Source: Martelella lutilitoris (GTDB taxonomy: Bacteria > Pseudomonadota > Alphaproteobacteria > Rhizobiales > Rhizobiaceae). Taken from it: a stretch of DNA of 64,000 bases. The notes beneath the pieces were generated by a model, which worked only from the letters and a program-made list of their open reading frames with translations, was not told the DNA's origin and searched no databases. The stretch is from the NCBI RefSeq assembly GCF_016598595.1, contig NZ_CP066786.1, positions 4,271,501 through 4,335,500 of the forward strand, written 5' to 3'. This document shows positions 1 through 17,664 of this stretch, piece after piece. Position numbers and translations under genes: made by a program. The stretch's first letter is position 1, and each line of letters begins with the position of its first letter.

Positions 1-954
1 CGACCAGCTCACGTGATCGGTGGAGACCAGAGTGACATTGCCGCAAGCCACATGCCGCCAGAGTTTTTCGACTTCGGCGCGCGGGCGCACCGGCGGGTTG
101 ATCTTGGCCTTGCCACCGAGCCGGCGGACGTCGTTTTCCTCGTCCAGCGTCAGATAATGGATGCAGCATTCGACCGTGGCATTGTGGCCCTCAGCGCGAT
201 AGCCGGCGGCGATCTCGTAGCCGCGGCCAAGCGAGCAATGCACCACATGCGCCGGGCAGCCGGTCTCGGCTCCCGTCTCGTAGATCTGGTGCATGGCAAG
301 CAGTTCCGTCAGCGGCGGTCGCGACAGGCCGTGGGCGCGGTAATCGGTGATGCCGGAGGCCTTCACCCTCGCGATCGCCGCATTGACGAATTCGTCGTCC
401 TCATTGTGGACGCCGGCGGCAAGGCCGGTCGGCGCAATCGCGGCAAAACACTCTTCCAGAAGGGCAGCGGGAATGCGGGGGAAACGGGTGGGGTGCGTAC
501 CGAAGGTCGAGAACTTGAAGGCGGCGACGCCGGCTTCCACCTGCTCTGCAATGCGCGCGGCACCTTCCGTTGGGTCGACCGTGCCGTAAAGGGCGAAATC
601 GACGCGAGCTTGCGGACTGGCATGCGCGATCTTCTTGCCGACGGCTTCGTCCGAATTCACCACATTGCCCTCGTCATAGGGCATGTCGACGATGGTCGTG
701 ACGCCGCCGGCAGCAGCCGAGCGCGTCGACCAGATGAAATCCTCCTGATCCTTCTGGCTCAGGGAATGCACCTGCGCATCGATTGCGCCGGGCAGGATCA
801 GCGCTTCGCCGAGGTCATGACGCTCGCGGGCGCCGGGCGCCTCCCCCTGGCCGATGGCGGCGATCAGCCCGTCGCGGACCGCCACATGGCCGCGCTTGAC
901 CACCCGATCGGAAAGCACCAGCGTGCCTTTCAGAACGAGATCGAAATCCGACAT
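1..954 (-). CDS. Cyclic amidohydrolase (hydantoinase/dihydroorotase family), 3' end cut off
   Basis: The first 318 codons are present; the stop lies beyond the left edge. The protein belongs to the metal-dependent cyclic amidohydrolases (hydantoinase, allantoinase, dihydroorotase), which open ring amides in the cytoplasm. Visible metal-site elements are D59-A-Q61-V-H63 after the PG turn, K147 in AFKFST (the lysine normally carboxylated), H183 (GVHNED), H239 (HVVHCS) and D313 (STDH). The usual first His of the HxH pair is Gln here, as in some non-canonical members. An AGGAGA ribosome site precedes the ATG, and the gene lies 10 bases after the permease in the same operon. With the betaine importer and the lyase upstream, a likely substrate is a hydantoin such as hydantoin-5-propionate, the late intermediate of ergothioneine breakdown. 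Family is sure; substrate is inference. Confidence 0.85.
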   Translation of the reverse strand, partial: MSDFDLVLKGTLVLSDRVVKRGHVAVRDGLIAAIGQGEAPGARERHDLGEALILPGAIDAQVHSLSQKDQEDFIWSTRSAAAGGVTTIVDMPYDEGNVVNSDEAVGKKIAHASPQARVDFALYGTVDPTEGAARIAEQVEAGVAAFKFSTFGTHPTRFPRIPAALLEECFAAIAPTGLAAGVHNEDDEFVNAAIARVKASGITDYRAHGLSRPPLTELLAMHQIYETGAETGCPAHVVHCSLGRGYEIAAGYRAEGHNATVECCIHYLTLDEENDVRRLGGKAKINPPVRPRAEVEKLWRHVACGNVTLVSTDHVSWS

Positions 955-964
955 TTGATGTCTC

Positions 965-1705
965 CTAGTAGAAGCGGCCCGTGCGCCGCGCGGTTGCCCG
1001 CTCGAACATCACGAAGGCATCGTGAATGAGGAGCGCCAGAACGCCGACCACGAGGCCGCCTTGCAGAACGAAAGCGGTGTTGTTCGACAACAGCCCGGCG
1101 ATGATCACCTCGCCAAGCGTCTTGGCGGCAACCGTCGAGCCGATCGTCGCCGTCGCCAGCGAGATGACGACCGAAAGGCGGATACCGGCGAGAATGACGG
1201 GAAAGGCGAGCGGGAACTCGACCTGCATGAGACGCTGCGTGCCGGTCATGCCGACGCCGCGCGCGGCCTCCGAGACATTGCCCGGCAAATTGGTGAGCCC
1301 CGTCAGCGCGTTCTCGAAGATCGGCAAGAGACCATAGAGAAAGAGCGCAATCAGCGTCGGGATCGGGCCGAAGCCGAACATCGGCACGGCAAGCGCCAGC
1401 ACGGCGACCGGCGGAAAGGTCTGGCCGATATTGGCGATCGAGCGCGACAGAGGCAGGAACTCGACGCCGAACGGCCTTGTGACGATGATGGCAAGGCCGA
1501 CGGAAAAGAGGGTCGCCGCAACCGTCGCCGCGCCGACAATGGCGAGGTGGCTCAGCGTCAGGGAGAGCAGGCTGGTCTGGGTGTAGATCGCCGGCGCGCC
1601 GTTCTGGGTGAACGGCCGGAACACCGGCGCGAAGGCTTCCGGAAAGCTGATGAAGGCGATCAGCAGGACGAGAAGCGCCAGACGGATGAAGACCGAGGCT
1701 CTCAT
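965..1705 (-). CDS. OsmU/OpuC-type ABC permease (YehW-like)
   Basis: Inner-membrane permease of 246 residues with an N-terminal membrane segment and about five more hydrophobic segments. The EAA loop is visible as EAARGVGMTGTQRLMQVEFP. Length matches the YehW subunit of the E. coli/Salmonella OsmU (YehZYXW) betaine importer. Its ATG overlaps the stop of the ATPase gene by four bases (ATGA at 1702-1705), indicating coupled translation. It should pair with the larger permease at 2637-3839 to form the channel. Known substrates of the family are quaternary amines (glycine betaine, choline-O-sulfate, carnitine, and ergothioneine for EgtU). The catabolic neighbours argue for a nutrient rather than an osmoprotectant. 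Confidence 0.9.
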   Translation of the reverse strand: MRASVFIRLALLVLLIAFISFPEAFAPVFRPFTQNGAPAIYTQTSLLSLTLSHLAIVGAATVAATLFSVGLAIIVTRPFGVEFLPLSRSIANIGQTFPPVAVLALAVPMFGFGPIPTLIALFLYGLLPIFENALTGLTNLPGNVSEAARGVGMTGTQRLMQVEFPLAFPVILAGIRLSVVISLATATIGSTVAAKTLGEVIIAGLLSNNTAFVLQGGLVVGVLALLIHDAFVMFERATARRTGRFY

Positions 1706-2640
1706 GATGACGGTCCCGCAGCGCGACGGATCAGGGCATCGCGGGTGACCCGGCCGATGACCTTGTCATCGCGCTCGACCGGCAGCGCGTCACGACCGGA
1801 CCAGAGTGCTGCGGCCAGCGCATCCTTCAGGCTTGCCGAAGCGGGGATCGCCTCGCCCTCGGCCGGGCCTTCCTCGACGAGGTTTTCGCAGGCCTCCAGC
1901 GAGAGCATGCGGAAGGCCTTGTCGCCGGTGCCGAGCAGTTCGTTGACGAAGGCGCTTGCCGGATCGGCGATGATTTCTGCGGCCGGCGCATATTGTTCAA
2001 GCCGTCCCTCATGCATGACCGCGATCTTGTGACCGAGGAGGATTGCCTCGTCCATGTCATGGGTGACGAGCACGACGGTGGTGGAGAATTTGCGCTGGAT
2101 ATCGATCAGGTCTTCCTGCGCCTTGGCGCGGATGATCGGGTCGAGAGCGCCGAAAGGCTCGTCCATCAGCAGCAATGCGGGTTCGGCGGCAAGTGCGCGG
2201 GCCACGCCGATGCGCTGCTGCTGACCGCCGGAAAGCTCGTGCGGCATGCGGTCACGAAAGGCTTCGGGCTCCAGGTGGAACAGTTCCAGCAGTTCATCGA
2301 CGCGGGCATCGCGCCGCTTCCTGTCCCAGCCGAGAAGCTTCGGCACCGTGGCGATGTTTTCCGCCACCGAGCGGTGGGGAAACAGGCCGTGGCCCTGAAT
2401 GGCATAGCCGATGCCGCGGCGAAGCTCGTAATCCGGCAGCTCGCGGTTATCGCGTCCGTCAATACGGATCGTGCCGGAGGTCGGTTCCACCAGGCGGTTG
2501 ATCATCCGCATCAGCGTGGTCTTGCCGGAACCGGACGTGCCGACGATCGCCGCCAGTTCGCCGCGCTCGACTTGGAGCGAGACATTGTCGACGGCATTAT
2601 AGTCGCCATAGACCTTGGTAATTCCCTCGATCTCGATCAT
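1702..2640 (-). CDS. Quaternary-amine ABC transporter ATP-binding protein (YehX/OpuCA-like)
   Basis: Cytoplasmic ATPase of 312 residues. Walker A is GTSGSGKT, the signature is LSGGQQQR, Walker B is LLLMDEP and the switch His is in VTHDMDEA. After residue 250 a short tail with a single CBS-like stretch (LPVERDDKVIGRVTRDALI) follows, as in the OpuCA/ProV/YehX branch, where the tail senses ionic strength or regulatory ligands. I start at the ATG giving MIEIEGITKVYGDY; the reading frame stays open upstream, but that part is the permease gene read in another frame. Overlaps both neighbouring permease genes by four bases, so three subunits are made from one tightly coupled message. Confidence 0.92.
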   Translation of the reverse strand: MIEIEGITKVYGDYNAVDNVSLQVERGELAAIVGTSGSGKTTLMRMINRLVEPTSGTIRIDGRDNRELPDYELRRGIGYAIQGHGLFPHRSVAENIATVPKLLGWDRKRRDARVDELLELFHLEPEAFRDRMPHELSGGQQQRIGVARALAAEPALLLMDEPFGALDPIIRAKAQEDLIDIQRKFSTTVVLVTHDMDEAILLGHKIAVMHEGRLEQYAPAAEIIADPASAFVNELLGTGDKAFRMLSLEACENLVEEGPAEGEAIPASASLKDALAAALWSGRDALPVERDDKVIGRVTRDALIRRAAGPSS

Positions 2641-3839
2641 GCCCGGCTCCCCTTTTTGGATTTTGTCTGGCTGATTTCGACAAGCGCATCGAGAATGATG
2701 GCCGCGGCAAAGGCCATGCCGACGACCGGCAGCGCGCCGAGCAGCACGAGGTCGGTGGCCGTCTGGGCAATGCCCTGGAAGACGAATGTGCCGTATCCGC
2801 CGCCGCCGATCAGCCCGGCGATTACGGCAAGGCCGATATTCTGCACCAGCACGATGCGGATGCCGGTGAGGATGACGGGAAAGGCCAGCGGCAGCTCCAC
2901 CTGGAAAAGCCGCTGGCGACCGGTCATGCCCATGCCGCGCGCGGCCTCGCGGGCATCGCGCGGCACGCTGTCGAGGCCGGCGACCGTGTTGGAGACGACG
3001 GGCAGCAGCGAATAGGCAAAGAGCGCAACGATGGCCGGGGCAAAGCCGATACCGGCAATGCCGAGTTCGGCAGCGCCCGGCACATTGCGGCCGACCCAGG
3101 CAAGCGGCGCGATCAGCAGGCCGAACAGCGCAATCGACGGGATCGTCTGCAAAACGTTGAGGCTGTTCAAAATGGTGGCGCGCACCTTCGGCACGCGAAA
3201 GCAGAGAATGCCGATCGGGATGCCGGCAGCAGCGGCAGCGGCCAGCGAGCCGAAGGCCAGTTCCACATGGGTGCGGCCCTCGCGCCAGAAGGCGTCGGCG
3301 CGGTTGTTGTATTCCTTCAGGATCGACAGATCGTTCCACGCGCCCGACCAGAGCAGCAGCCCGATCGCGAAGGCCGCGACGATCAGGAACGCGATCCGCA
3401 TCATCGGCGGCAGCGCCTTGCGCACGATCGCATCGGCCATGGCGATGGAAAAGGCGAACAGCAGGATCCAGAAGCTCGCGCCCGGCGAAACGCGGGCATA
3501 AGGATTGTCGTCCGGCATCAGGTAATAGCCGGCGCGGCCCACCATCAGCGCCAGAACGGCAATGGCGGCGATCGAAACGGCGAGCCTGAGGTTCACCGGC
3601 GTCCTGAACAGGATGACGGCGATGGCGGCGAGCATGGCGACGACAAGGGCAATGGCCTGCCACAGCGGCATCGCCGACCAGACCATGACATTGTCGGCCG
3701 CGACGATGCGGTTCGCGCGGAAAAGCGCGAAGGGCTGGAGAAAGAGTGCGAAGAGCGCTATCGCCGCGACGATGACGCCGAGCTTGTCGAGCCTTGCGGC
3801 GGCCCGGCCTTCCTTTCGGTATTCGCTGATGGCTGACAT
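2637..3839 (-). CDS. OsmU/OpuC-type ABC permease, long form (YehY-like)
   Basis: Inner-membrane permease of 400 residues. An N-terminal half with about five extra hydrophobic segments precedes the normal permease domain, whose EAA loop reads EAARGMGMTGRQRLFQVELP. The size and the extension match YehY of OsmU (about 385 residues), and the set SBP-YehY-YehX-YehW has the same lengths and order as in enterobacteria. The start chosen (MSAISEYRKE) has GAAGGG upstream. An upstream in-frame ATG would run the protein into the palindromic repeats at 3899-4035 and is unlikely. Confidence 0.9.
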   Translation of the reverse strand: MSAISEYRKEGRAAARLDKLGVIVAAIALFALFLQPFALFRANRIVAADNVMVWSAMPLWQAIALVVAMLAAIAVILFRTPVNLRLAVSIAAIAVLALMVGRAGYYLMPDDNPYARVSPGASFWILLFAFSIAMADAIVRKALPPMMRIAFLIVAAFAIGLLLWSGAWNDLSILKEYNNRADAFWREGRTHVELAFGSLAAAAAAGIPIGILCFRVPKVRATILNSLNVLQTIPSIALFGLLIAPLAWVGRNVPGAAELGIAGIGFAPAIVALFAYSLLPVVSNTVAGLDSVPRDAREAARGMGMTGRQRLFQVELPLAFPVILTGIRIVLVQNIGLAVIAGLIGGGGYGTFVFQGIAQTATDLVLLGALPVVGMAFAAAIILDALVEISQTKSKKGSRA

Positions 3840-3898
3840 GGCATGCCCTTCGGCTGTCGGTCGGTTATCCCGCTTGGGCGGGGGTGCGCGCCTTCGAT

Positions 3899-3943
3899 CT
3901 CCCCTCTTGAGGGGGAGATGTCGCGAAAGCGACAGAGGGGGGT
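3899..3943 (+). repeat. Rhizobial-type intergenic palindrome, copy A
   Basis: GC-rich mosaic palindrome: CTCCCC, then GAGGGGGAGATG, then a small hairpin GTCGCGAAAGCGAC, then AGAGGGGGG. It matches copy B (3988-4035) in inverse orientation. Both lie between the substrate-binding-protein gene and the permease gene of one operon, so they will be transcribed and form strong RNA hairpins. Elements of this kind recur in many rhizobial genomes (from memory; copy number cannot be counted here). Confidence 0.75.
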
Positions 3944-3987
3944 AAGGGCAAGAGCCGCATACACCGTGCCTCATTGGAGAGGGTTCA

Positions 3988-4035
3988 CCCCTCTCTGCCC
4001 CCTGTCGGGGCATCTCCCCCTCAAGGGGGGAGATT
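3988..4035 (-). repeat. Rhizobial-type intergenic palindrome, copy B (inverted)
   Basis: Inverse counterpart of copy A: CCCCTCTCTGCC, CTGTCGGGGCATCTCC and CCCTCAAGGGGGGAGATT. The arms CTCCCCCT and AGGGGGGAG form a hairpin themselves, and the two copies can also pair with each other across about 45 bases. It starts about 30 bases beyond the stop of the binding-protein gene, so it could shield the 3' end of that part of the message and raise its level over the permease part. Confidence 0.75.
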
Positions 4036-4065
4036 GTTTTTGCTGTAGTGCCGCCGATTTCGGCC

Positions 4066-4983
4066 TTACTTCACGAACCCGTTCTTCGTCAGGTAGTCCT
4101 TGGCAACCGCATCGGCCGGTTCGCCGCCAACCTGGACGCGGCCGTTGAGGTCCTGCAGGGTTTCAAGCGTCAGGCCCTCGAAGATCGGCTTCAGCATGTC
4201 GGCGATCTGCGGGTATTCCTCGAGACGGACCTCGCGGATGATCGGGGTCGGCAGGTAGACCGGCTGCACGCCCTTGTCGTCCGTCATCACCTTCAGGCCG
4301 GACGGCGCGATGCCGCCGTCGGTGCCGTAGACCATGGCGGCATTGGCGCCGGATGTCTGTTTGGCCGCCGCCGCGATCGTTGCCGCCGTATCGCCGCCGG
4401 AAAGCTGGATCAACTGGCCGGAGGTGAGATCGAAGCCATAGGCTTCCTCGAAGGCCGGAAGCGCTGCCGGCGAGGTGACGAACTCGGAGGATGCCGCCAG
4501 CTTCACCGTGCCGCCATCGGCGACATAGGCGCCGAACTCGCTCATGGTCGACAGGTTGTTCGGATCGGCAACGTCCTTGCGCAAAGCGATCGCCCAGGTG
4601 TTATTGGCGTCCGCCGGGGTCAGCCAGACGATCTTGTTGGTGTCGTAGTCGAGCTTCTTGGCCTCTTCATAGCCGGCCTCCGGCTTGTTCCAGACCGGAA
4701 GGTCGGTCTTGTTGAAGAAGAAGGCGGCATTGCCGGTATATTCCGGGTAGATATCGATCTGGCCCTGCGTGATCGCCTGACGGACGATCGGCGTGCCGCC
4801 GAGCTGGATCTTGTTTTCCGTCGGAATGTCATTGGCCTGCAGCGCCTGCAGGATGATGTTGCCGAGCACGCCGCCTTCCGTGTCGATCTTGGAGGAGACG
4901 ACGACCGGATCGGCCGAAGCGGTTCCTGCGAAGGCGAAAGCCGAAATGGCGAGCGCGCCTGTCAAAGTCAAAAGTCGTTTCAT
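4066..4983 (-). CDS. Periplasmic quaternary-amine-binding protein (OsmF/OpuCC-like)
   Basis: Solute receptor of 305 residues, the length of E. coli OsmF. Signal peptide MKRLLTLTGALAISAFAFAG ends near TASADP with an AxA-type cut site; no lipobox. The mature part has the family landmarks: SSKIDTEGGVLGNIILQAL, LGGTPIVRQAITQGQID, then YPEYTGN in the ligand cleft. Receptors of this group hold trimethylammonium groups in an aromatic cage. Encoded directly downstream of the lyase gene (55-base gap) and before the two permeases and ATPase. Ligand unknown; context suggests ergothioneine, hercynine or another betaine. Confidence 0.92.
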   Translation of the reverse strand: MKRLLTLTGALAISAFAFAGTASADPVVVSSKIDTEGGVLGNIILQALQANDIPTENKIQLGGTPIVRQAITQGQIDIYPEYTGNAAFFFNKTDLPVWNKPEAGYEEAKKLDYDTNKIVWLTPADANNTWAIALRKDVADPNNLSTMSEFGAYVADGGTVKLAASSEFVTSPAALPAFEEAYGFDLTSGQLIQLSGGDTAATIAAAAKQTSGANAAMVYGTDGGIAPSGLKVMTDDKGVQPVYLPTPIIREVRLEEYPQIADMLKPIFEGLTLETLQDLNGRVQVGGEPADAVAKDYLTKNGFVK

Positions 4984-5038
4984 GATCTGTCCCTCTCTTG
5001 GTCGGTCCGTTCAAGACCGTGCTTGATCGCCTGCGGCC

Positions 5039-6589
5039 TCAGGCCGTCTCAGGCGGTGCGAGTGCGAAAAAGTCATCGAGCAGGGCCAGCGGCGCCTGGT
5101 CGATCAGTCTGGTCATTGTCGCGTCCGAGCCGAGCTCCTCCTCAATCTGCTCGACCTCGCTCGAAAGCGGCCTGTCCTTCAGATAGAGCGCGGAATGCGA
5201 TCTGACGATAGCATAGACCAGATTTGCAACACCGCATGGTTCATCGCCGGAAATATCCATGGCCTGCGCCGCCAGAAGCGCCTCGAGGCCTGCCATGCGC
5301 CTGAGCGCCCGCACCTGTCGCTCGAAGCGTTCGACCACCAGCGGCAGGAAGGCGGCCTCGTCCTCGATCCCGCCGGCCACCACCAGCGACTGGGCCGAGA
5401 TCGGCGCGGAGAGCGACTGGGTCCGGATGAAGAGATCGCCCGCAAGCTTCAGGATCGGGCCGAAACCGGTGGCCACCACGCCATGCGGCACGAGGTTGAC
5501 CGGCAGGCCGCGCCGTCCCCCGTTTGCAAGGATGACGCAGCGGTTGAAGATGTTACGCGCCACATGGGCCATGGCGATCTGGGCGGCCTGCATGTAGATC
5601 GTCACATCGAGCGGTAGCGAGCCGCCGGAGGTCAGCACTTCATTGCCGATGACCACCGGATTGTCATCGGTGCGGCCGGTCGCCGCCAGAATGGTATTGC
5701 CGGCAATCGTCAGGCTCTCGATCGTGGTACCGAAGACCTGCGGCATCATGCGGATCGACAATGGATCCTGCACATGGCTGGCGGACGTCCAGCACCAGTC
5801 ATCGAAGGCGCGGCAAAGCCAGGTGCCGATATCGGCATGGGCATGGGTGCCGACCTCGACCACCGAACGCCAGGGCGCGATCGCGGCACCCATGGCGCCG
5901 GCCGTCGCAAGGCCAGTCGCCAGGAGCACGCGCACGGCAAGGGCGGCCTTGTGCAGGGCGGATGCGGCGGAGGCATAGCCGATGGCATTGAGCGAGAAGG
6001 AAGCGAGCGCATCGCGCGGCTCCATCCGCAAGGGCTTCAGGCCGGCAGCCGTGAAGGCCTCGGTCACCGGCATGCGGCGCCCCTGATAGACGGCATCGCC
6101 AACGCCGGTGAGCGCTGCCGAGACCTGACCCATCAGGCCGATATCGGCGCAACCGATCGAACCCGTGCGGCGCACGATCGGGATGACATCCTGTTCGAGC
6201 AGCGCCTGAAACGCCTCCACCAGAGCCATGGAGCAGCCAACCCTTCCGGTCAGCGCCGTATTGATGCGGATCGCGATCGCGTTGCGGACGATCTCGACCG
6301 GAAAAGGCTCGCCGGTTCCGAAGTGATGGGCGCGCACGAGGCCGAGATTGAAGTCTTCCAGCGCTTCGGCGGTCCACTCCGTGTCCTTCATCGCGCCGAC
6401 GCCGGTATTGGCGCCATAGATCGAGAGCCCGTCGGCAAGCCGGTCCTTCACCACCTGATGGGCGCGCTCAACCCGCTCGACCCCGGCGTGCGTGACGGCG
6501 GGAAGCGCGAGGCCGGCGCCAATCCGCGACAGGATGTCGAAATCCAGCGGCTGTCCTGAAAACATGATGTTCTTGTTCTTCGGGCTCAT
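5039..6589 (-). CDS. MIO-less aromatic amino-acid lyase-fold enzyme, probable ergothionase-type trimethylamine lyase
   Basis: Cytoplasmic enzyme of 516 residues with the histidine/phenylalanine ammonia-lyase fold. Conserved landmarks are Y58-G-A-N-T-G (catalytic Tyr loop), TGSIG at 142-146, DNPVV and NGGRRGLPVNL. In true ammonia-lyases Ala-Ser-Gly follows the GS(V/I)G stretch and forms the MIO cofactor; here the three residues are Cys147-Ala148-Asp149, so MIO cannot form. A documented relative without MIO is ergothionase, which eliminates trimethylamine from ergothioneine by acid/base catalysis. First gene of an operon with a betaine importer and a hydantoinase-like enzyme, fitting that role; hercynine or histidine betaine are alternatives. 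I start at MSPKNKN, with GGGGA upstream; an ATG 12 bases earlier is possible. Confidence 0.8.
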   Translation of the reverse strand: MSPKNKNIMFSGQPLDFDILSRIGAGLALPAVTHAGVERVERAHQVVKDRLADGLSIYGANTGVGAMKDTEWTAEALEDFNLGLVRAHHFGTGEPFPVEIVRNAIAIRINTALTGRVGCSMALVEAFQALLEQDVIPIVRRTGSIGCADIGLMGQVSAALTGVGDAVYQGRRMPVTEAFTAAGLKPLRMEPRDALASFSLNAIGYASAASALHKAALAVRVLLATGLATAGAMGAAIAPWRSVVEVGTHAHADIGTWLCRAFDDWCWTSASHVQDPLSIRMMPQVFGTTIESLTIAGNTILAATGRTDDNPVVIGNEVLTSGGSLPLDVTIYMQAAQIAMAHVARNIFNRCVILANGGRRGLPVNLVPHGVVATGFGPILKLAGDLFIRTQSLSAPISAQSLVVAGGIEDEAAFLPLVVERFERQVRALRRMAGLEALLAAQAMDISGDEPCGVANLVYAIVRSHSALYLKDRPLSSEVEQIEEELGSDATMTRLIDQAPLALLDDFFALAPPETA

Positions 6590-6723
6590 CGCGTTCCCCA
6601 TTGATTGAGGCAAGCGTATTGGATTATCGCAGAAGACGGGATATCCCATATGATGAACGGGAGATGCTCCCGATTTATGCAATCTTTCTTTTGCATAAAA
6701 TATAAGCACAGCAGAATGGGGCG

Positions 6724-7905
6724 ATGTCCGTGGATACGCTGACGATCATAAGCGTGCATGAAGTGCTGAAATGCGGCGGCCTGCGCCCCGCAGCGCGCGC
6801 ATTGCATCGTCCGCCGGCCAGCATGGCAGCCGCCGTCAGCCGGATGGAGGACGAACTCGCCACGCCGCTGGTGCAGAAGGCTGGATCGCGCCTGTCGCTG
6901 ACGCTTGAGGGACGGCGGCTGATGCCGGATATCGCGCTTGCGGCAGGCACGGCCCGCGCTCTTGGGGAGCTTGCGGCGGTTGACGCCGCGCGAAAAGCGA
7001 AGCTGTCGGTGAGCTTCCTCACGCTTTCCCGCTTCTCGCAGGTGGCGCGCTCGGGCAGTATCCGACGCGCCGCGCGGGAGATCGGCATCGGCCAGCCGCA
7101 GCTTTCCCGCCAGATTTCCGCCTTCGAAGCGGACATGAACCGGGCCCTCTTTGTCCGCAGCGCCGAGGGCATTGACCTGACGCCCGCCGGCCAGCAGGCG
7201 CTCGCGCTTGCCGAGACGCTCGAGGAAGTGTGGAAACGCCTGACCAAGAGTGCGGCCCGCCAGTTCCGCCGCACGGTCTCCACCTGCCACCTGGGATCGG
7301 TGATCCCGCTCGGCTACGAGAGCAACACGGCGCGCTCCCTCGCCCGGCTTTCCGCGCGCTGGCTCGAGCAGCGGCCCGGCGCGCCGTTGTTCATCTCGTC
7401 CACCACGGCGGATGAACTGATGCGCGGCCTGCAGGGCGGCACCTATGACGTGGCGCTGCTGGACACCGAGGCGATCCCGGACAATTTCGAGCGCCGGGCG
7501 ATCTCGCGCTCGCGCCTCTCCATTGTCGGCCCGCGCCGGCTGATCGAGACAAGCGGCGGGGACGTCGCCAATCTGGTGCTGACCCGCCCGGTCGCGGTGC
7601 CGAGCCTCAAGAGCGGGCTCAGGCAAAAGGCCGACGCGCTTTTCGCCGAGAAGCTGAGCGAAGCCGAACGGACGGCGATGCGCATGGTCGAGGTCGATTC
7701 CCTGCCGATCATCATCAACCTCGTCATCGAGCACGATTTTGTCGCCGTGCTGCCGGAGGCCGCCTTTCTTTCCATGGCCGCCCCGATCGGCAGCATTCCG
7801 CTGGCGGATCGTTTCAGCCTCACCCTCTCCCTGGTCTGGCCGCCGACAACGGCCGCCGCCCGCCAGGCAAGCCGCATCCTGGAGGTTTTGCCGGCGATCG
7901 ACTGA
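6724..7905 (+). CDS. LysR-family regulator with two tandem helix-turn-helix domains
   Basis: 393 residues, about 90 more than a normal LysR protein. Two LysR-type winged helix domains follow one another: residues 6-70 (GGLRPAARALHRPPASMAAA, then a wing ending LSLTLEGRRLM) and 96-160 (SGSIRRAAREIGIGQPQLSR, then LFVRSAEGIDLTPAGQQAL). The first is less canonical. A periplasmic-binding-fold effector domain occupies about 185-393. Transcribed away from the lyase/transporter operon with 134 bases between the start codons, the usual arrangement for a LysR activator of its divergent operon. The inducer is probably a substrate or intermediate of that operon. Confidence 0.88.
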   Translation: MSVDTLTIISVHEVLKCGGLRPAARALHRPPASMAAAVSRMEDELATPLVQKAGSRLSLTLEGRRLMPDIALAAGTARALGELAAVDAARKAKLSVSFLTLSRFSQVARSGSIRRAAREIGIGQPQLSRQISAFEADMNRALFVRSAEGIDLTPAGQQALALAETLEEVWKRLTKSAARQFRRTVSTCHLGSVIPLGYESNTARSLARLSARWLEQRPGAPLFISSTTADELMRGLQGGTYDVALLDTEAIPDNFERRAISRSRLSIVGPRRLIETSGGDVANLVLTRPVAVPSLKSGLRQKADALFAEKLSEAERTAMRMVEVDSLPIIINLVIEHDFVAVLPEAAFLSMAAPIGSIPLADRFSLTLSLVWPPTTAAARQASRILEVLPAID

Positions 7906-8012
7906 AGGAGCGCGACTTCAAAAATTCGGATACCTTTTTGAGGAACATCAGGCCTGCCCGGAGGGTTTCTGCTTAAGGCAAATCTTCCCCGTCAACCAAG
8001 AGGAGGTCCCTG

Positions 8013-8471
8013 ATGAGCCTGTTCAAAGTTCCCCACAAATCCTGGGTCGTTGTCTGCGACGGTTCGCGGGCGCTGTTTCTGGAAAATGGCGGCGATGCCG
8101 AGATCCTGAATCTCAGGGTGGAAGAGCGCTTCGCCCACGACGACGCGCCCTCGCGCGATATCGGCACCGACAAGCCCGGCCGCTCCCATTCCTCGGTCGG
8201 CAGCGGTCGCAGCGCCATGGAGGAAACCGACTGGCATGAACAGGCGGAGCAGGAATTTGTCAAACGGGTGGCCGAACGCCTCAACGCCCTCGTCTATGAC
8301 AAGACGATCGAGGACTATGTCCTGATCGCCCCGCCGGCGGCAATCGGTGCGCTCCGCCCCCATCTCAAGTCCGAGACAAGCGGGGCAATGCGCGAGGAAA
8401 TCCAGAAGGAACTCGCCAACCAGTCGGTCGCCGATATCGAGAAGCACCTGACCAAATTGCGGGCCGCCTGA
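8013..8471 (+). CDS. Host attachment family protein
   Basis: 152 residues, soluble, no signal peptide. The pattern WVVVCDGSRALFLENGGDAE, a middle RDIGTDKPGRSHSSVGSGRSAMEE stretch (shortened here by splitting: RDIGTDKPGR then SHSSVGSGRS) and the end YVLIAPPAAIGALRPHL are typical of the family once linked to plant attachment in Agrobacterium. The fold resembles peptide-release-factor/VLRF1-like domains, and the true biochemical role is unsettled. The ATG has AAGAGGAGG upstream. Single gene, with a GC-rich inverted repeat without a T-run just after the stop. Confidence 0.8.
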   Translation: MSLFKVPHKSWVVVCDGSRALFLENGGDAEILNLRVEERFAHDDAPSRDIGTDKPGRSHSSVGSGRSAMEETDWHEQAEQEFVKRVAERLNALVYDKTIEDYVLIAPPAAIGALRPHLKSETSGAMREEIQKELANQSVADIEKHLTKLRAA

Positions 8472-8582
8472 GCCCGGATCGGCGGTTGCCGCGGGGCGGC
8501 GCTCGCCGCGCCCGGCCCGCGCAACTGCCGTCAGCAGCCGAAGGCTTCCGCGAAGATGCCAAAACGCCAGCTCGGAACCGAA

Positions 8583-8618
8583 ATGATTGATATCGATCAT
8601 CTTTTGATCGTATCAAAA
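8583..8618. promoter_or_regulatory. Two dyads upstream of the DeoR gene, candidate operator
   Basis: ATGATTGATATCGATCAT (8583-8600) is a near-perfect palindrome with one mismatched pair. TTTTGATCGTATCAAAA (8602-8618) has perfect 7-base arms around CGT. They lie 91-126 bases before the DeoR ATG in an AT-rich patch of otherwise GC-rich DNA. The most likely ligand is the DeoR-family repressor encoded next. Confidence 0.5.
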
Positions 8619-8708
8619 CAGTTCTCGGCCAAAAGTACGCACAAAATCTTGCATTTCTGATTCTTCTGGTTCATTTTCCGGGAATGGAATTCCGTACGGG
8701 AGGACGGA

Positions 8709-9494
8709 ATGGCGGAGTTGCACCGGCACCAGAAAATACTGGCCCTGCTTGCTGAGCACCCCTTTCTCTCGGTCACCGAACTGACCGACGCGACGGGCGT
8801 GTCCGCAGCGACCGTCCGGCGCGACATCGACAAGCTTGAGAAGGCAGGCTTCGGCCAGCGCGTGCATGGCGGCATCGCGGCCGAAAAGGGTCATCACGCC
8901 CGCCGCGCCATCCCCCTTCCCTTCATGGAAAACCGCGACATCGCGGTCGAGCAGAAACGGGCGATTGCGGCCGCCGCCTCGACGCTCGTGCGCGACGGCA
9001 CGTCGATCATCATTCACGGCGGCTCGACCTGCTTTCACTTCGGCATGGCCATTGCCCGGCGCAATCTCAGGGTCTTCACCCATTCCATGCCGCTCGCCGC
9101 CTATCTCGCCGAATATGGCGAATGCCAGCTGACCATCGGCGGCGGCGACCTGCACCGAGAGCCCGGCATCGTCTATGACCGGTTCGCCGACGAGCGCGCC
9201 TTCTATGCCTCGCAGTTCTTCGTCGGCGCGCTCGGCATTGAACGGCAAGGGCTGATGGAGACCAACCCGCTGCTGGTCCAGCTGACCCGCGATATGGCCG
9301 CCTTCGCCAACGAGATCATCGTCCTCGTCGACAGCCGCAAATTTGCCGAACGGACATCGACGCTGTCCCTACCCTTTGCCCAGATCCGCAGGCTGGTGAC
9401 CGATGACGGCCTCGCCGATGCCGATGCCCGCATGCTCGAGGAGGAAGGCGTCGATTATATCGTCGCCGCGCGAAAGGGAGAGACCGACGCATGA
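8709..9494 (+). CDS. DeoR-family transcriptional repressor
   Basis: 261 residues. N-terminal DeoR winged helix at about 5-60 ([36 protein letters not shown]), then the sugar-phosphate-sensing DeoRC domain, with the GGxT-like loop [12 protein letters not shown] and later [17 protein letters not shown] and LVDSRKF. Ribosome site GGAGGACGGA is next to the ATG. Its stop overlaps the ATG of the ABC ATPase (ATGA at 9491-9494), so it is the first gene of the sugar-import operon it presumably represses. The effector would be a phosphorylated sugar; no kinase is present here. Confidence 0.9.
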
Positions 9495-11020
9495 CAGAGA
9501 CCTCACGCCCGGTTCTGGAAATGGAAGGGATTTCAAAGACCTTCGGGTCCGTGAAGGCCCTGGAGGATGTCGCGATCACCGCCCATGGCGGCGAGGTGCA
9601 CGCGCTGATGGGTGAAAACGGCGCCGGCAAATCGACCCTGATGAAGATCCTCTCCGGCGCCTATACGCCGGACAAGGGCGGCACCATCCTGGTCGGCGGC
9701 AAGCCTGTGCCGGAAGGCAACCCGAAGGCGGCCAAGGCCATGGGCGTTGCCGTGATCTACCAGGAGCTGTCGCTCGCGCCCAATCTGACGGTCGCCGAAA
9801 ACGTGTTCCTCGGCAATGAGCGCGCGCGCTCCGGTATCGTCAACCGCGCGGAGATGCGTTCGCGCACCGCGCCGCTGCTGAAGCGTCTCGGCGTCGACTT
9901 CTCCCCCTCGACAGTGGTCGGCAGCCTCTCGCTCGGCGAACGCCAGCTTGTCGAGATCGCCCGCGCCATGTCCACCAATGCGCAGATCATCGTCATGGAC
10001 GAGCCGACGACATCGCTGTCAAGCCGCGAGACCGAACGCCTGTTCGAGGTGATCGCCGCGCTCAAGGCCGACGGCATCGCCATCATCTACATCTCGCACC
10101 GCATGGAGGAGGTCTACCGCCTTGCCGACCGCTGCTCGGTGCTGCGCGACGGCAAGTATATCGGCACGCTTGACCGCGACGAGCTGAGCGCCGAACGGCT
10201 GATCTCGATGATGGTCGGTCGCGAGCTCTCGACCTTCTACAAGAAAGAGCATGTCGAGCGCGCCGAAAGCGCCGAAACGGTCCTCGAGGTGCGCAATATG
10301 AGCGCCGGCCGCAAGGTGCGCGATTGCTCCTTTTCCGTCCGGCGCGGCGAGGTGCTTGGCGTCTCCGGCCTTGTCGGCTCCGGACGCACCGAGCTTGCCC
10401 GGCTGATCTACGGCGCCGACAAGGCGACATCCGGCACGGTGCTGCTCGAAGGCCGGGAGGTGACCCCGCAAAGCCCGAGCGCCGCGCTTGACGCCGGCAT
10501 CGTCTATCTGACGGAAGACCGCAAGCAGCTCGGCCTGTTCCTCGACATGACGATTGCCGACAACATCAATATCTGCGTCATGGGCGAGGATTCGGGACCC
10601 GCCGGAACGCGCAACTTCAGGGCGGCGCGCAAGCGGGCGCGCGCCGAGTTCGAGAAACTGTCGATCCGCGCGCCCTCGCCTTTCGTCAATGTCGGTTCGC
10701 TGTCGGGCGGCAACCAGCAGAAGGTGCTGCTCGGACGGCTGCTGGAAGTCAAACCGAAAGTGATCATACTCGACGAGCCGACCCGCGGCGTCGATGTCGG
10801 CGCGAAATCCGAAATCTACCGGCTGATCGATGAACTGGCGCGCCAGGGTCTCGCCGTGGTGATGATCTCCAGCGAGTTGCCGGAAATCATCAATGTCGCC
10901 GACCGCGTCATCGTCATGCGCGAAGGCGAGATCGCCGGCGAGGTGACATCGTCGGACGGTGCGGCGATCGAACAGGAAGCAATCATGCGGCTTTCCACGG
11001 GAAGCGGGGCCGCTGCATGA
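9491..11020 (+). CDS. Ribose-type (CUT2) sugar ABC transporter ATP-binding protein
   Basis: 509 residues with two ATPase domains in tandem, as in RbsA/MglA/XylG. Domain 1 has Walker [10 protein letters not shown], signature LSLGERQ and Walker [13 protein letters not shown]. Domain 2 has the degenerate Walker [10 protein letters not shown], signature LSGGNQQKV and [13 protein letters not shown]. Cytoplasmic; powers the permease encoded next. Sugar not identifiable from sequence; no catabolic enzyme is in the operon. Confidence 0.93.
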
Positions 11021-11053
11021 AAGACGGCGCTGAAATGCCGAAGGAGGACATCT

Positions 11054-12037
11054 ATGACTGAGACGCAGAAGGGAGCGGCCGGCGGCCGGTCCTACCAGGT
11101 CGGCACGCTGATCAAGACGCTCGGCATGCTGCCGGTGCTGATCCTGCTGGCAATCGGATTCCAGCTCCTGACCGGCAAATTCTTGGGCGTCAACAATCTG
11201 TCGATCGTCATGCAGCAGGCCTCGATCAACATCGTGCTGGCGGCCGGCATGACCTTCGTCATCCTGACCGGGGGCATCGACCTTTCGGTCGGCTCGATCC
11301 TTGCGGCGTCCGCCATGGCGGCGGTGATCTTCTCGCTCAACCCGGCGCTCGGCTGGATCGGCGTGCCGGCAGGGCTGGCGCTTGGCCTGGTCTTCGGCCT
11401 TGCCAACGGCGCGCTGGTGGCGTTCCTGCGATTGCCGCCCTTCATCGTCACGCTCGGATCGCTGACGGCGGTGCGCGGCGTGGCCCGGCTGATGGGCAAT
11501 GACACGACGGTGTTCAACGCCGAACTGCCATTCGCGGTGATCGGCAACGGCGCGATCCTCGGCGTGCCGATCCTTGCCATCATCGCCCTTCTGGTCATTC
11601 TGATTTCCTGGTTCGTGCTGCGCCGCACGGTGCTCGGCACCTGGATCTATGCCGTCGGCGGCAACCAGGAGGCGGCACGGCTGACGGGCATCAAGGTGCC
11701 GCTTGTGCTGCTGTTCGTCTACGGCGTCTCCGGCCTGATGGCAGGGCTTGGCGGCGTCATGTCGGCGGCCAGGCTTTACGCGGCCAACGGCCTGCAACTC
11801 GGACAATCCTATGAGCTCGACGCAATCGCCGCCGTCATTCTGGGCGGTACCAGTTTCGTTGGCGGCGTCGGCTCGATCTGGGGCACGCTGATCGGTGCGC
11901 TGATCATCGCTGTCCTGTCGAACGGCCTGATCCTGACGGGAACGTCGGATATCTGGCAGTTCATCATCAAGGGCCTTGTCATTATCGCTGCCGTCACCCT
12001 CGACCGCTTCCGCGGCAAGGGTTCCGACAGGACGTAA
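11054..12037 (+). CDS. Ribose-type sugar ABC transporter permease
   Basis: 327 residues, about eight to ten hydrophobic segments, RbsC family. Family landmarks are FVILTGGIDLSVGSILA in the first third, AVGGNQEAARLTGI in the middle, and LGGTSFVGGVGSIWGTLIGA near the end. Ribosome site GGAGGA sits 7 bases before the ATG. Lies 33 bases downstream of the ATPase gene and before the binding-protein gene. Confidence 0.93.
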   Translation: MTETQKGAAGGRSYQVGTLIKTLGMLPVLILLAIGFQLLTGKFLGVNNLSIVMQQASINIVLAAGMTFVILTGGIDLSVGSILAASAMAAVIFSLNPALGWIGVPAGLALGLVFGLANGALVAFLRLPPFIVTLGSLTAVRGVARLMGNDTTVFNAELPFAVIGNGAILGVPILAIIALLVILISWFVLRRTVLGTWIYAVGGNQEAARLTGIKVPLVLLFVYGVSGLMAGLGGVMSAARLYAANGLQLGQSYELDAIAAVILGGTSFVGGVGSIWGTLIGALIIAVLSNGLILTGTSDIWQFIIKGLVIIAAVTLDRFRGKGSDRT

Positions 12038-12083
12038 AGGCCCTTCATTCACGCATGAAACGCAAAAACGCGGAGGAGCAACC

Positions 12084-13034
12084 ATGCATATTTCGAAGAA
12101 ACTTCTTCTTGGCGCGGCAGCGGCCATCGCCATGACGGCGTCCGGCGCGCAGGCGCAGGACAAGGAACTGAACAGCATCGGCATTTCCGTCGGCCTGCTC
12201 GGCAACCCGTTCTTCGTCGCCACCATCAAGGGCATCGAGGACCGCGCCCGCGAGATCAACCCCGATGTCGAGATCACCTCGGTCTCGGCCGATTACGACC
12301 TCAACAAGCAAGTGAGCCAGATCGATAACTTCATCGCCAAGGGCGTCGACATCATCATGCTGAACGCCGTGGACGACACGGCGATCGCTCCCGCCGTCAA
12401 CCGCGCCAAGAACGCCGGCATCACGATCGCCGCCTTCGACGTTTCCGCGCCGGGCGCTGACGTGACCGTGATGACGGATAATATCGCCGCCGGCCAGAAG
12501 GCCTGCCAGTACATCGTCGACGCGCTTTCCGGCGAAGGCAATGTCGCCATCATCAAGGGCCCGTCCTCCTCCTCGCTCAATGACCGTTTCACCGGCTGCA
12601 TGGAGGTGTTCGAGGCCAATGACGGCATCAATGTCGTTTCCAACGACCAGAACGGCCTAGCCGCGCGCGAAGGCGGCATGAACGTGATGCAGGGTCTGCT
12701 GACCCGTTTCTCCGATCTCGACGCGGTCTTCGGCGCCAATGACCCGATGGCGCTCGGCGCCCAGCTTGCCGCCAAGCAGCTCGGTCGCACCGACATCATC
12801 ATCACCGGCGTCGACGGCGCTCCGGATACGGAAAAGTCGCTGAAGGACCCGAACTCACTGCTGAAGGCATCCGCGTCCCAGGACCCTTACGTCATGGCCG
12901 GCGAGGCGCTTGAGCTTGGTTACAAGTTCTATCAGGGCGAGGATATCGAGGAGACCACGGTTCTGCTCGAGCCGCAGCTGATCACGGCGGACAATGTCGA
13001 CGAGTATCAGGGCTGGACGGCCGTTCGCGAGTAA
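12084..13034 (+). CDS. Periplasmic sugar-binding protein (ribose/LacI-type)
   Basis: 316 residues. Signal peptide MHISKKLLLGAAAAIAMTAS with cut after AQA. Mature protein has the two-lobe RbsB fold: IGISVGLLGNPFFVATIKGI at the start, IDNFIAKGVDIIMLNAVDD, and VFGANDPMALGA. I start at 12084, where GGAGGAG lies 5 bases upstream; the open frame upstream overlaps the permease gene. Last gene of the DeoR operon, followed by a strong terminator. Confidence 0.93.
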   Translation: MHISKKLLLGAAAAIAMTASGAQAQDKELNSIGISVGLLGNPFFVATIKGIEDRAREINPDVEITSVSADYDLNKQVSQIDNFIAKGVDIIMLNAVDDTAIAPAVNRAKNAGITIAAFDVSAPGADVTVMTDNIAAGQKACQYIVDALSGEGNVAIIKGPSSSSLNDRFTGCMEVFEANDGINVVSNDQNGLAAREGGMNVMQGLLTRFSDLDAVFGANDPMALGAQLAAKQLGRTDIIITGVDGAPDTEKSLKDPNSLLKASASQDPYVMAGEALELGYKFYQGEDIEETTVLLEPQLITADNVDEYQGWTAVRE

Positions 13035-13072
13035 GCCCGGACCCGCCCCGCACCCGCATTGAGACCTGAGAG

Positions 13073-13102
13073 GCGCGGCGGCTATTCCGCCGCGCCTTTT
13101 TC
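13073..13102 (+). terminator. Rho-independent terminator after the sugar-import operon
   Basis: Stem GGCGCGGCGG / CCGCCGCGCC (10 perfect pairs), loop CTATT, then TTTTT. It begins about 40 bases after the binding-protein stop codon. Confidence 0.9.
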
Positions 13103-13234
13103 GTGCCTGAGTCTCTCCTTCTTGATGCGCGTCAAGGTGGCGATTTCTTCTTTCCGCACACTGGACTTGAGCCGGTTTGCCGGTAAGCTCGCCGCAGGCG
13201 GGAGCCGGCGGCAATCGCCGCTGCGGGAGAGGCC

Positions 13235-13978
13235 ATGCAGGACCAGCAAACAGCCAAGACCGACGACAATCGCCGCAAGCCGATTTTTTCCGCGCGCGGC
13301 CTGGCGAAGGTCTATACGAGCGGCGAGGTCGAGGTGAAGGCGCTGGCCGGCGTCGACCTCGACCTCTTCGACGGCGAGATGGTGGTGCTGCTCGGCCCTT
13401 CGGGCAGCGGCAAGTCGACGCTTCTCAACATTGTCGGCGGGCTCGACCGGGCGAGCTCGGGTACGGTCCGGTTCCGCGACGAGATCATTTCCGATTATAC
13501 CGAATGGAAACTGACGCGCTATCGCCGCGCCCATGTCGGCTTCGTCTTCCAGTTCTACAACCTGATCCCGAGCCTGACGGCGCGCGAGAATGTGGCGCTG
13601 GTCGGGGCGATCTCGAAAAACCCGATGCCGCCCGAAGAGGCGCTGGAAATGGTCGGGCTGAAACAGCGGATGGATCATTTTCCGGCCCAGATGTCGGGCG
13701 GCGAGCAGCAGCGCGTCGCCATTGCCCGTGCCATTGCCAAACGGCCGGAGGTTCTCTTCTGCGACGAGCCGACCGGCGCGCTCGATTCGAAAACCGGCAT
13801 TCTCGTGCTCGAAGTGCTCTGCCGCATCAATGAGGAGCTCGGCGCCACCGTCGCCATCATCACCCACAATGCCGATATCCGCAGGATCGCCCATCGTGTC
13901 ATCACCTTCCGCGACGGCAAAATCGAGGGCACGGAGATCAACCAGGAGCGCCTGAACCCGGCGGAGATCCAATGGTAG
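13235..13978 (+). CDS. MacB/LolD-type ABC exporter ATP-binding protein
   Basis: 247 residues. Walker [11 protein letters not shown]-loop [17 protein letters not shown], signature MSGGEQQR and Walker [16 protein letters not shown]: the typical LolD/MacB/DevA motifs. GGAGAGG precedes the ATG by 2-3 bases. Its 3' end overlaps the permease gene by 7 bases, and the adaptor gene follows, giving the order ATPase-permease-HlyD. Such sets move lipids, peptides or antibiotics outward from the inner membrane. Substrate unknown. Confidence 0.9.
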
Positions 13979-16335
13979 CGATCCTCGACCGCAAGCTTCT
14001 GCGCGACGTGCGGCGTCTCTGGGCGCAGCTTCTGGCGGTGGCACTGGTTCTGGCCTGCGGCGTGGCTGTGCTGATCATGGCCGTCGGCGTCTACCGCTCG
14101 CTGATCGAGACGCGCGACACGTTTTATGACCGCTATCGCTTCGCCGATGTCTTTGCCACGGTGACCCGCGCGCCCGACCGGCTGGCCGAGGAGATACGGG
14201 CGATCGACGGGGTGTTGCGCGCCGATTTCCGTGTGGTCAAGCCCGCCATTCTCGACATTACCGGCATGCAGGCTCCGGCCGCCGCCACCGTGGTCTCGAC
14301 GCCCGACAGCGGCGAGCCGCTCTTAAACCGCGTCTATATCCGCGCCGGGCGCCTGCCCGACCCGAACCGCGTCGGCGAGGTGGCGGTTTCGGAAAATTTC
14401 GCCAAGGCGCACGGCTTTTCGCCCGGAGACCGTTTCGAGGCGCTGATGGACGGCAAGAAGCGCCGTCTCACCATCACCGCCATCGTTCTCTCGCCCGAAT
14501 ATGTCTACGCCATCGGCCCGGGCGACATGGTGCCGGACAATGCCCGCTACGGCATCCTCTATATGCCGGAAACCGTGTTTGACGGCATATTCGACATGGA
14601 CGGCGCGTTCAACGAGGTGGCGCTGCAACTCGGGCGCAACGCCAATGAGGACGCGGTGATCGAACGTCTTGACCACCTGCTTTCCCCTTATGGCGGCATC
14701 GGCGCCTATGGCCGCGACAGGCAGATTTCGAACGCCTTCGTCGACAGCGAACTGACGCAGTTGAAGGCCATGGCGGGGGTTCTGCCGCCAATCTTCCTCG
14801 GGGTTGCCGCCTTCCTCGTCAACATGGTGCTGTCGCGGATGATCGCGCTGGAACGCGAGCAGATCGGCCTGTTGAAGGCGCTCGGCTTTTCAAGCCCGGC
14901 CATCGCCGCGCACTATATCAAGCTGACGCTGGTGATCGTCATCATCGGCACGGCGATCGGCTTTGCGCTCGGCAGCTGGTGGGGCGTGGCGATGACCAGG
15001 CTTTACGTGCGCTTCTACACCTTCCCCTTCCTGGTGTTCGACTGGAGCCCGGACGTCTATCTCCTGGCGGGAGGCGTGGCCGCCGCAGCCGCTTTGGTCG
15101 GCGCGGCAAGGGTGATCTATCGCGCGGCCAGCCTGCCGGCCGCCGTTGCTATGCGCCCGCCCGAACCGGTGCGCTACCGGCAGCTTTCGCTCGGATTCCG
15201 GCTGCCGCGCCTGCTCTCCGAACTGACGATCATGGCGCTGCGCAATATCACGCGGTTTCCGGTGCGCGCGGCAATGACCGTGGTCGGCATCGCCATGCCG
15301 GTGGCGCTTCTGACGGTCGGCATGTCCACCTCCAATTCCATGGATGCGATGATCCGGGCGATCTTCTTCGACACGCAGCGCCAGGACGCAACAGTCAGCT
15401 TCACCGATGCACTCGCGCCCGAGGCGCTCATTTCGCTCGGCCGCCTGCCCGGCGTGATGCGCGCGGAAGGGTTTCGGTCCGAACCGGTGATCCTGCGCAA
15501 CGGCTACCTGGAAAAGCATCTGTCGATCAACAGCGCTGCAGGTTCCGACGATCTCTCCCGTGTGGTGGATCCGGATGCCGTACAGCTTTCCATTCCGCCA
15601 GACGGGCTGATGATCAGCGAGCGCGTGGCCGAAACGCTCGGCCTTTCCACCGGCGACATGGCCGAGGTCGAGCTCGTGACGCGAAACCATCGTCTCGTCG
15701 ACGTGCCGGTCACCTCGGTCGTGCAGAGCTTTCTGGGCCTGGCCGTCTTCATGGACGACGCGGCGCTCGACCATCTGGTCGGCGACGGCCGCCGGATTTC
15801 AGGCGCCAATATCGCCGTCGACGAGACCCGGCTTGCCGCTTTCTACGGCGCGGTAAAGGAAACGCCGAAGATTGCCGGCGTGGCGCTCAACCGGCTGTCG
15901 CTGGAAAATTTCCGCAAGACCATGCGGGAGAATATCGACATCATGTCGACCATCTATATCGCGCTTGCGGCCGTCATCACCTTCGGCGTCGTCTACAATT
16001 CCGCGCGTATTCTTCTGTCCGAGCGCGGCCGTGAGCTGGCAAGCCTCAGGGTGCTCGGGTTCTCCCGCGCGGAGGTCTCGCAGGTGCTGCTGGTGGAAAT
16101 CGCGGTGTTGATCACGCTCGCCCAGCCGATCGGCTGGTATCTCGGCTATTTCTTCGCCAAGCTGGTGATTTCGGGGTTTTCGAGCGACCTTTTCACCATT
16201 CCGTTCGTCGTCGATCTCGACAGCTATGCGCGCGCGTCGCTGGTGGTCGTCATCGCCGGCCTTTTGTCCGCGCTGGTCGTGCGCCGGCGGATCGACCGTT
16301 TCGATCTCGTCGAAGTGCTGAAAACGAGGGAGTAA
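13972..16335 (+). CDS. FtsX/MacB-type ABC exporter permease, duplicated core
   Basis: 787 residues. One membrane segment near the N-terminus ([20 protein letters not shown]), a periplasmic domain of about 220 residues, a three-segment FtsX block at about 265-390 (ending [14 protein letters not shown]), then a second copy of the same plan with periplasmic domain and FtsX block ending [19 protein letters not shown]. The duplicated layout gives about eight membrane segments in one chain, so one polypeptide may replace the usual permease dimer. Two large periplasmic domains suggest handling of a substrate at the outer leaflet of the inner membrane. Works with the ATPase before it and adaptor after it. 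Confidence 0.88.
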
Positions 16336-16339
16336 CCCA

Positions 16340-17545: not shown

Positions 17546-17664
17546 TGCCACACCTGCATTGCCCCGGCGCATTGCTTGGCCTCTCCGCCTTGATCCCACT
17601 GCCATTTCGGCCTAATACTTTCCTTTATCGAATGCCGCATCTTGATGGATTATGAATTTCTGAA

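Follow-up and report, generated by a model that had tools for sequence, protein, structure and literature searches.

Ergothioneine uptake and ergothioneine breakdown are very probably encoded together, in a single nine-gene operon, at the left edge of a 64,000-nucleotide stretch of DNA here called the window (G000:C1:4271501-4335500), which belongs to a 4.79 Mb genome of the order Hyphomicrobiales in three contigs. Read with its contiguous left flank (C1:4253001-4272500, locus L009, in which window position 1 is L009 18501), the minus strand carries a lyase, an OsmF-type receptor, a permease, an ATPase, a second permease, ErtD, ErtE, a thiohydantoin desulfurase and a thiourocanate hydratase (Table 1). 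Overlaps of 4 bases join permease 1 to the ATPase, the ATPase to permease 2 and ErtD to ErtE, and the gaps measure 10 bases from permease 2 to ErtD, 1 from ErtE to the desulfurase and 11 from the desulfurase to the hydratase. The widest, 226 bases between receptor and permease 1, contains a 33-nt inverted repeat (window 3897-4034) with 88% complementary arms 72 nt apart and the look of a repetitive extragenic palindromic element. A preliminary description of the window had already grouped on this strand four importer genes, a lyase unable to form 4-methylideneimidazole-5-one (MIO) and a hydantoinase-like amidohydrolase, and each was found at its place.

The lyase has the aromatic-lyase fold and lies closer to the characterised ergothionase than to histidine ammonia-lyase (HAL), its best PDB match being ergothionase 6s7j with 182 bits versus 132 for HAL. 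As first proposed, it should be unable to form MIO: the Ala-Ser-Gly triad is lost, with GSIGC-ADIG in the window against GSVGASGDLA in all nine MIO-type rows aligned (eight lyases from the loci studied and PDB 1gkj), and the one-residue deletion that abolishes it is common to the window lyase and the Treponema ergothionase. Ten alignment columns, K381 included, are common to the window lyase and 6s7j and found in none of the nine MIO-type rows. In a tree of 21 chosen lyase loci, the window enzyme groups with the Treponema ergothionase, apart from the MIO-type lyases; it is also distinct from the HutH of its own genome. Copies in Martelella radicis and Martelella lutilitoris are 99% and 97% identical to it, which places the organism in Martelella or near it. 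These comparisons support its assignment as an ergothionase, predicted to release trimethylamine from ergothioneine.

The steps that the preliminary description had expected left of position 1, a urocanase-like hydratase, a desulfhydrase and an N-carbamoyl-glutamate amidohydrolase, are present there as thiourocanate hydratase, thiohydantoin desulfurase and ErtE, each above the cut-off of its NCBIfam model; the flank holds these pathway genes on the same strand and no unrelated pathway. The amidohydrolase at the window edge, proposed to act on hydantoin-5-propionate, passes the ErtD model as a whole protein. ErtE also exceeds generic hydrolase cut-offs, and NF009531 outscores its own model (653 bits). 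The enzyme assignments come from family models and homology, and the chemistry is taken from the published five-step pathway. The OsmF-type receptor, two permeases and ATPase would import ergothioneine; the MIO-less lyase would convert it to thiourocanate and trimethylamine; the hydratase and desulfurase would carry thiourocanate to hydantoin-5-propionate with loss of sulfide; ErtD would open the ring to give N-carbamoyl-glutamate; and ErtE would yield glutamate, ammonia and CO2. This catabolic route is already known, and NCBIfam models exist for its steps. Bacterial ergothioneine catabolism (Beliaeva 2021, doi 10.1021/acschembio.0c00968) is cited in the excerpt of PMC9732360, and a gut pathway (Feng 2025) in that of PMC13405746.

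Scanning a genome collection yielded 241 matches to the pattern; 192 of these encode a lyase relative, and the best 80 of the 192 were examined, with downstream enzymes and OsmF in the flanks called by tblastn at a minimum identity of 55%. All four downstream enzymes flank the lyase in 71 of these 80 loci (16 with OsmF, 55 without), so the company of this gene is not due to chance. Among the other nine, two lie at contig ends (L068; L074, with OsmF), six contain none of the four enzymes (L021, L030, L034, L046, L060, L078) and one, L017 of Martelella alba (11600-18321), has the importer with OsmF, the desulfurase and the hydratase only, ErtD and ErtE not being found in the flank. In 18 loci, OsmF lies downstream of the lyase at a distance of at most 1 kb; these come from records titled Devosia (13), Martelella (3), Salinarimonas (1) and Marinicella sp. 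W31 (1), the last with a lyase 93% identical to that of the window. Records titled Rhizobium or Rhizobiales bacterium make up most of the 55 loci with four enzymes and no OsmF, and one is a Pelagibacterium; in the one Rhizobium locus inspected (L023, 2501-7076), the operon lies near dnaA and a formamidopyrimidine-glycosylase gene. Some predicted ergothionases are named 'histidine ammonia-lyase' by their sources. According to the excerpt of a 2026 paper (PMC13405746), ergothionase is confined to few genera, a view against which the 192 stretches from one scan can be set.

Linkage to the importer was assessed in an even sample of 297 genomes of the order, with thresholds of E <= 1e-60 for the lyase and E <= 1e-40 for the OsmF receptor. 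The lyase occurs in 16, the receptor in 70 and the desulfurase in 18. Lyase and receptor adjoin, 58-265 bases apart, in 12 of the 16 lyase genomes (G000, G005, G155, G182, G202, G210, G222, G243, G244, G282, G288 and G291), even where the lyases are just 38-48% identical. The receptor lies away from the lyase in three Rhizobium-like genomes (G023, G187, G281) and was not found at its threshold in G119. OsmF is thus present in 15 of the 16 lyase genomes and in 55 of the 281 others (Fisher p 1.4e-9, kinship ignored). Lyase and desulfurase occur together in 14 order genomes, and two have the lyase without the desulfurase: G182, where an ergothionase and an OsmU-type importer (L101, G182:C109) stand in a genome with no desulfurase match, and G119, which has an ergothionase (L100) and neither of the other two. 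Perhaps these two loci serve trimethylamine harvest only. A class sample of 337 genomes, the window's own included, gave the desulfurase in five. Three more class genomes combine lyase and desulfurase, and OsmF adjoins the lyase in two of them: in G336 and G556 the operon is complete, OsmF included, with lyases only 46% and 36% identical to the window's, and G311 has lyase, desulfurase and hydratase with no OsmF within the stretch read. Overall, OsmF stands beside the lyase in 13 of the 17 genomes holding both lyase and desulfurase.

Four order genomes (G207, G226, G236, G294) have the desulfurase and no lyase of the window clade. In G207, G294 and G236, the desulfurase and hydratase, joined in G236 by ErtD, stand beside an importer with an amino-acid-type receptor of the SBP_bac_3 family, assigned in G294 because it shares 96% tblastn identity with that of G207. 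In G207 and G236, hydratase and desulfurase alike exceed the cut-offs of the thio-specific models. G226 yielded the desulfurase alone, and no recognisable importer among the scanned neighbours. Lyase matches in G207, G236 and G226 (E <= 0.001) are all triad-intact, and G294 encodes elsewhere a triad-less lyase (L158, G294:C60:28753-30171, GSIGA-GDLG) that is distant in the tree from both the ergothionases and the MIO-type lyases.

The fifth such locus, L174 of genome G381 (G381:C3:70001-89500; 6813-12999, plus strand), is an operon of a HAL-like lyase, a thiohydantoin desulfurase, a thiourocanate hydratase (963 against a cut-off of 930) and one more gene, which matches sulfide-quinone reductase weakly. 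Its lyase has the MIO triad intact, scores 302 bits to HAL versus 154 to ergothionase, and reaches 525.6 on the HAL subfamily model (cut-off 524) while staying under the HutH cut-off. This arrangement points to an entry step that releases ammonia, with 2-thiohistidine as a possible substrate, a compound for which a single search of open-access papers brought up nothing. On another contig of G381, two adjoining, distant, triad-less lyase-like genes (L185 and L187, G381:C7:95486-98454) have LGMDGE instead and are 21% and 25% identical to the window lyase. OsmF adjoins none of the five loci and three have the amino-acid-type receptor, in a sample where two members share a genus (G207, G294) and triad-less lyases are absent from only three genomes. 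On these few cases, we take the type of receptor to depend on the substrate, with a betaine receptor for the entry of ergothioneine and another type where thiourocanate would enter.

The receptor itself is close to PDB entries 5teu, 5uve, 4nd9 and 4wep, and matches EgtUC (9egi) at 89 bits. The preliminary likening of the importer to EgtUV, within an OsmU/OpuC family, holds for the wide receptor family; the subfamily proved to be OsmF/YehZ, with a separate receptor gene, and not EgtU. A tree was built from 73 receptors, those of the 70 receptor-bearing order genomes minus 15 (G004, G005, G015, G045, G077, G085, G108, G117, G174, G196, G217, G218, G222, G272, G282), and others, the second matches of G121 and G198 being left out as well. 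Fourteen positions were mapped, by spacing alone, to the EgtUC contacts given in the excerpt of PMC9732360.

Three results weigh against an importer dedicated to ergothioneine. No OsmF adjoins the lyase in 62 of the 80 named loci. The 27 linked receptors do not group as a single clade in the tree, which needs 12 changes of label, no fewer than 7 of them imposed by well-supported branches, and an ert-specific receptor clade was accordingly rejected. Finally, 11 of the 14 mapped pocket positions are identical in all 73 receptors, linked and free-standing copies being nearly alike: the exceptions are position 65 (different in 12 of 43 free-standing receptors), position 33 (in 2 of 43) and position 171 (in one linked receptor of 27 and one free-standing receptor of 43). 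Deducing the ligand from pocket residues was given up, as the two groups hardly differ at these positions. Either linked and free-standing receptors share a ligand, possibly ergothioneine, or both would be general betaine receptors.

The enzymes could degrade ergothioneine next to an OsmF importer that transports quaternary amines other than ergothioneine (glycine betaine, choline derivatives) or betaines of many kinds, its placement reflecting shared habitats. The pass on the OsmF 'glycine betaine' model, the near-invariant pocket, the OsmF operons lacking ert genes in the stretches covered for 43 genomes that have no lyase and the OsmF kept elsewhere in the three Rhizobium-like genomes all fit such an account. 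We nevertheless consider it unlikely, given the lyase-receptor adjacency across divergent lyases, the position of the importer genes between lyase and ErtD, the five desulfurase loci devoid of OsmF and the E. coli OsmF relative, which the title of Lang 2015, cited in the excerpt of PMC6207618, describes as low-affinity and non-osmoregulatory. For that transporter family, ergothioneine would be a concrete candidate cargo. Beyond their importer genes, other OsmF operons share three clusters, present in 41 of 46 loci and presumed to be shadow frames; the remaining clusters occur in at most 9 loci.

That the importer carries ergothioneine is inferred from gene linkage and from importer replacement in a few relatives, and from no ligand-specific sequence feature. 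The link is put forward as a testable hypothesis, the natural cargo of this transporter family being unsettled. More tentatively, ergothioneine may be a main cargo of alphaproteobacterial OsmF/OsmU importers, which are annotated for osmoprotectant uptake, free-standing copies included; as a corollary, the kind of importer would go with the entry enzyme, and ergothionase-less relatives would import thiourocanate via an amino-acid-type receptor. If so, free-standing importers may serve an antioxidant use of ergothioneine, not its use as food, and the shared pocket would mean a shared ligand. No OsmU-type importer tied to ergothioneine was found in the open-access literature among the matches listed, most subscription papers lying outside it; the excerpt of PMC12689799 puts forward BetP and related betaine transporters as candidates for ergothioneine import in Corynebacterium.

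As to the substrate, it is very improbable that the operon is meant for S-methyl-ergothioneine or hercynine, the sulfur-free histidine betaine. The hydratase and desulfurase do match the S-methyl models, under the cut-off (748 for 880 and 289 for 450), but the thio models give them much better scores (1028 and 606), and hercynine breakdown would need no desulfurase. A second hut-like histidine-utilisation operon with a degenerate lyase, suggested by the distant homology of the lyase to HutH and of the hydratase to HutU (whose model it passes with 687 bits, cut-off 375), is scarcely credible in view of the desulfurase, of a triad-less lyase at 209 bits on HutH (cut-off 539) and of the complete hutI-hutH-hutU set, HutH triad intact, elsewhere in the genome.

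Regulation of the ergothioneine operon may involve the divergent LysR-family gene, which has two helix-turn-helix (HTH) stretches. LysR relatives above 38% identity occur in 11 of the 80 lyase loci, and a two-HTH_1 relative (43%) is also found in the ergothionase-less G236 locus, a hint of an inducer common to both, for example thiourocanate. The operator-like element between regulator and lyase was derived from an alignment of nine intergenic regions, one of which (L017) is without the exact form. The window has one copy, as against 0 in 100 shuffles. Among 188 fetched loci it occurs in 13, two being the window's own genome stretch and the other 11 lying just upstream of a lyase; four of these 11 (L030, L077, L114, L155) are independent of the defining alignment. 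The LysR protein is the probable sensor of a pathway intermediate, for instance thiourocanate, with this element as its probable site of action.

No match to PF10017 (EgtD-type) occurs in the genome, and the organism is therefore not a recognised ergothioneine producer; the family also matches in E. coli among the control genomes and is thus wider than EgtD. Nor does the genome have a match to PF00743, the family of flavin monooxygenase (FMO)-like proteins, so the usual trimethylamine monooxygenase is not seen. In this organism without an EgtD-type match, one transcription unit would carry external ergothioneine to glutamate.

Table 1. Features of the proposed ergothioneine operon, its surroundings and related loci; ranges without a locus label are window positions.
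Feature	Position	Strand	Remarks
Predicted MIO-less ergothionase (ergothioneine trimethylamine-lyase), first operon gene	5039..6589	-	516 aa; PF00221 271 bits
OsmF/YehZ-type periplasmic receptor, proposed ergothioneine receptor	4066..4983	-	305 aa; NF049931 496 bits (cut-off 400); PF04069
ATP-binding cassette (ABC) permease 1	2637..3839	-	400 aa; PF00528; start taken at 3839
ABC ATPase	1702..2640	-	312 aa; PF00005; TIGR01186 proV 282 bits, under cut-off 327
ABC permease 2	965..1705	-	246 aa; PF00528
ErtD, hydantoin-5-propionate amidohydrolase	1..954 (N-terminal 318/459 aa); L009 18075-19454	-	NF058538 784 bits whole, cut-off 600
ErtE, N-carbamyl-L-glutamate amidohydrolase	L009 16828-18078	-	NF058540 600 bits, cut-off 520
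Thiohydantoin desulfurase	L009 15738-16826	-	NF058529 606 bits, cut-off 440
Thiourocanate hydratase	L009 14062-15726	-	NF058530 1028 bits, cut-off 930
gyrB, beyond hydratase	L009 11272-13710	+	
Divergent LysR-family regulator	6724..7905	+	393 aa; PF00126 (2 HTH_1 stretches), PF03466
Conserved operator-like element TATTGGA-N14-GGGATATCCCA	6617..6648	+	between regulator and lyase
Thiourocanate hydratase/desulfurase loci with SBP_bac_3 receptor replacing OsmF	L097 (G236) 2194-10811; L096 (G207) 3233-10761; L099 (G294)		

Further along the window (8709-13034, plus strand), a DeoR-type regulator precedes an ordinary-looking ABC importer of the sugar type, with an ATPase, a permease and a receptor-like open reading frame.

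Several known systems offer points of comparison. The structures of the Treponema denticola ergothionase (PDB 6s7j, 6s7q) are reportedly those of Maurer 2019; the window lyase has the same fold, the same loss of one triad residue and the ten diagnostic columns in common with it, but is only 25-28% identical and sits on a long branch. The five-step bacterial catabolism of ergothioneine is said to be that of Beliaeva, Leisinger and Seebeck in 2021. Every enzyme class of it is found in one operon here, four of them passing NCBIfam models for its steps, and beyond the five enzymes this operon contains a four-gene OsmU-type importer, with a two-HTH LysR gene alongside.

With EgtU, the importer has in common the wide receptor family and, apparently, the aromatic cage: in the spacing-only mapping, the cage aromatics and contacts K242, I243, T274, N339 and E375 appear to be kept, and G244, T296 and R379 to be replaced. 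The EgtU receptor domain is fused to the permease (PMC9732360, excerpt), whereas the window receptor is a separate, unfused open reading frame. In this it resembles the OsmF/YehZYXW (OsmU) importer, which has the same separate receptor, two permeases and ATPase. Unlike that system, the window importer lies inside an ergothioneine catabolic operon, with ergothioneine as its proposed cargo.

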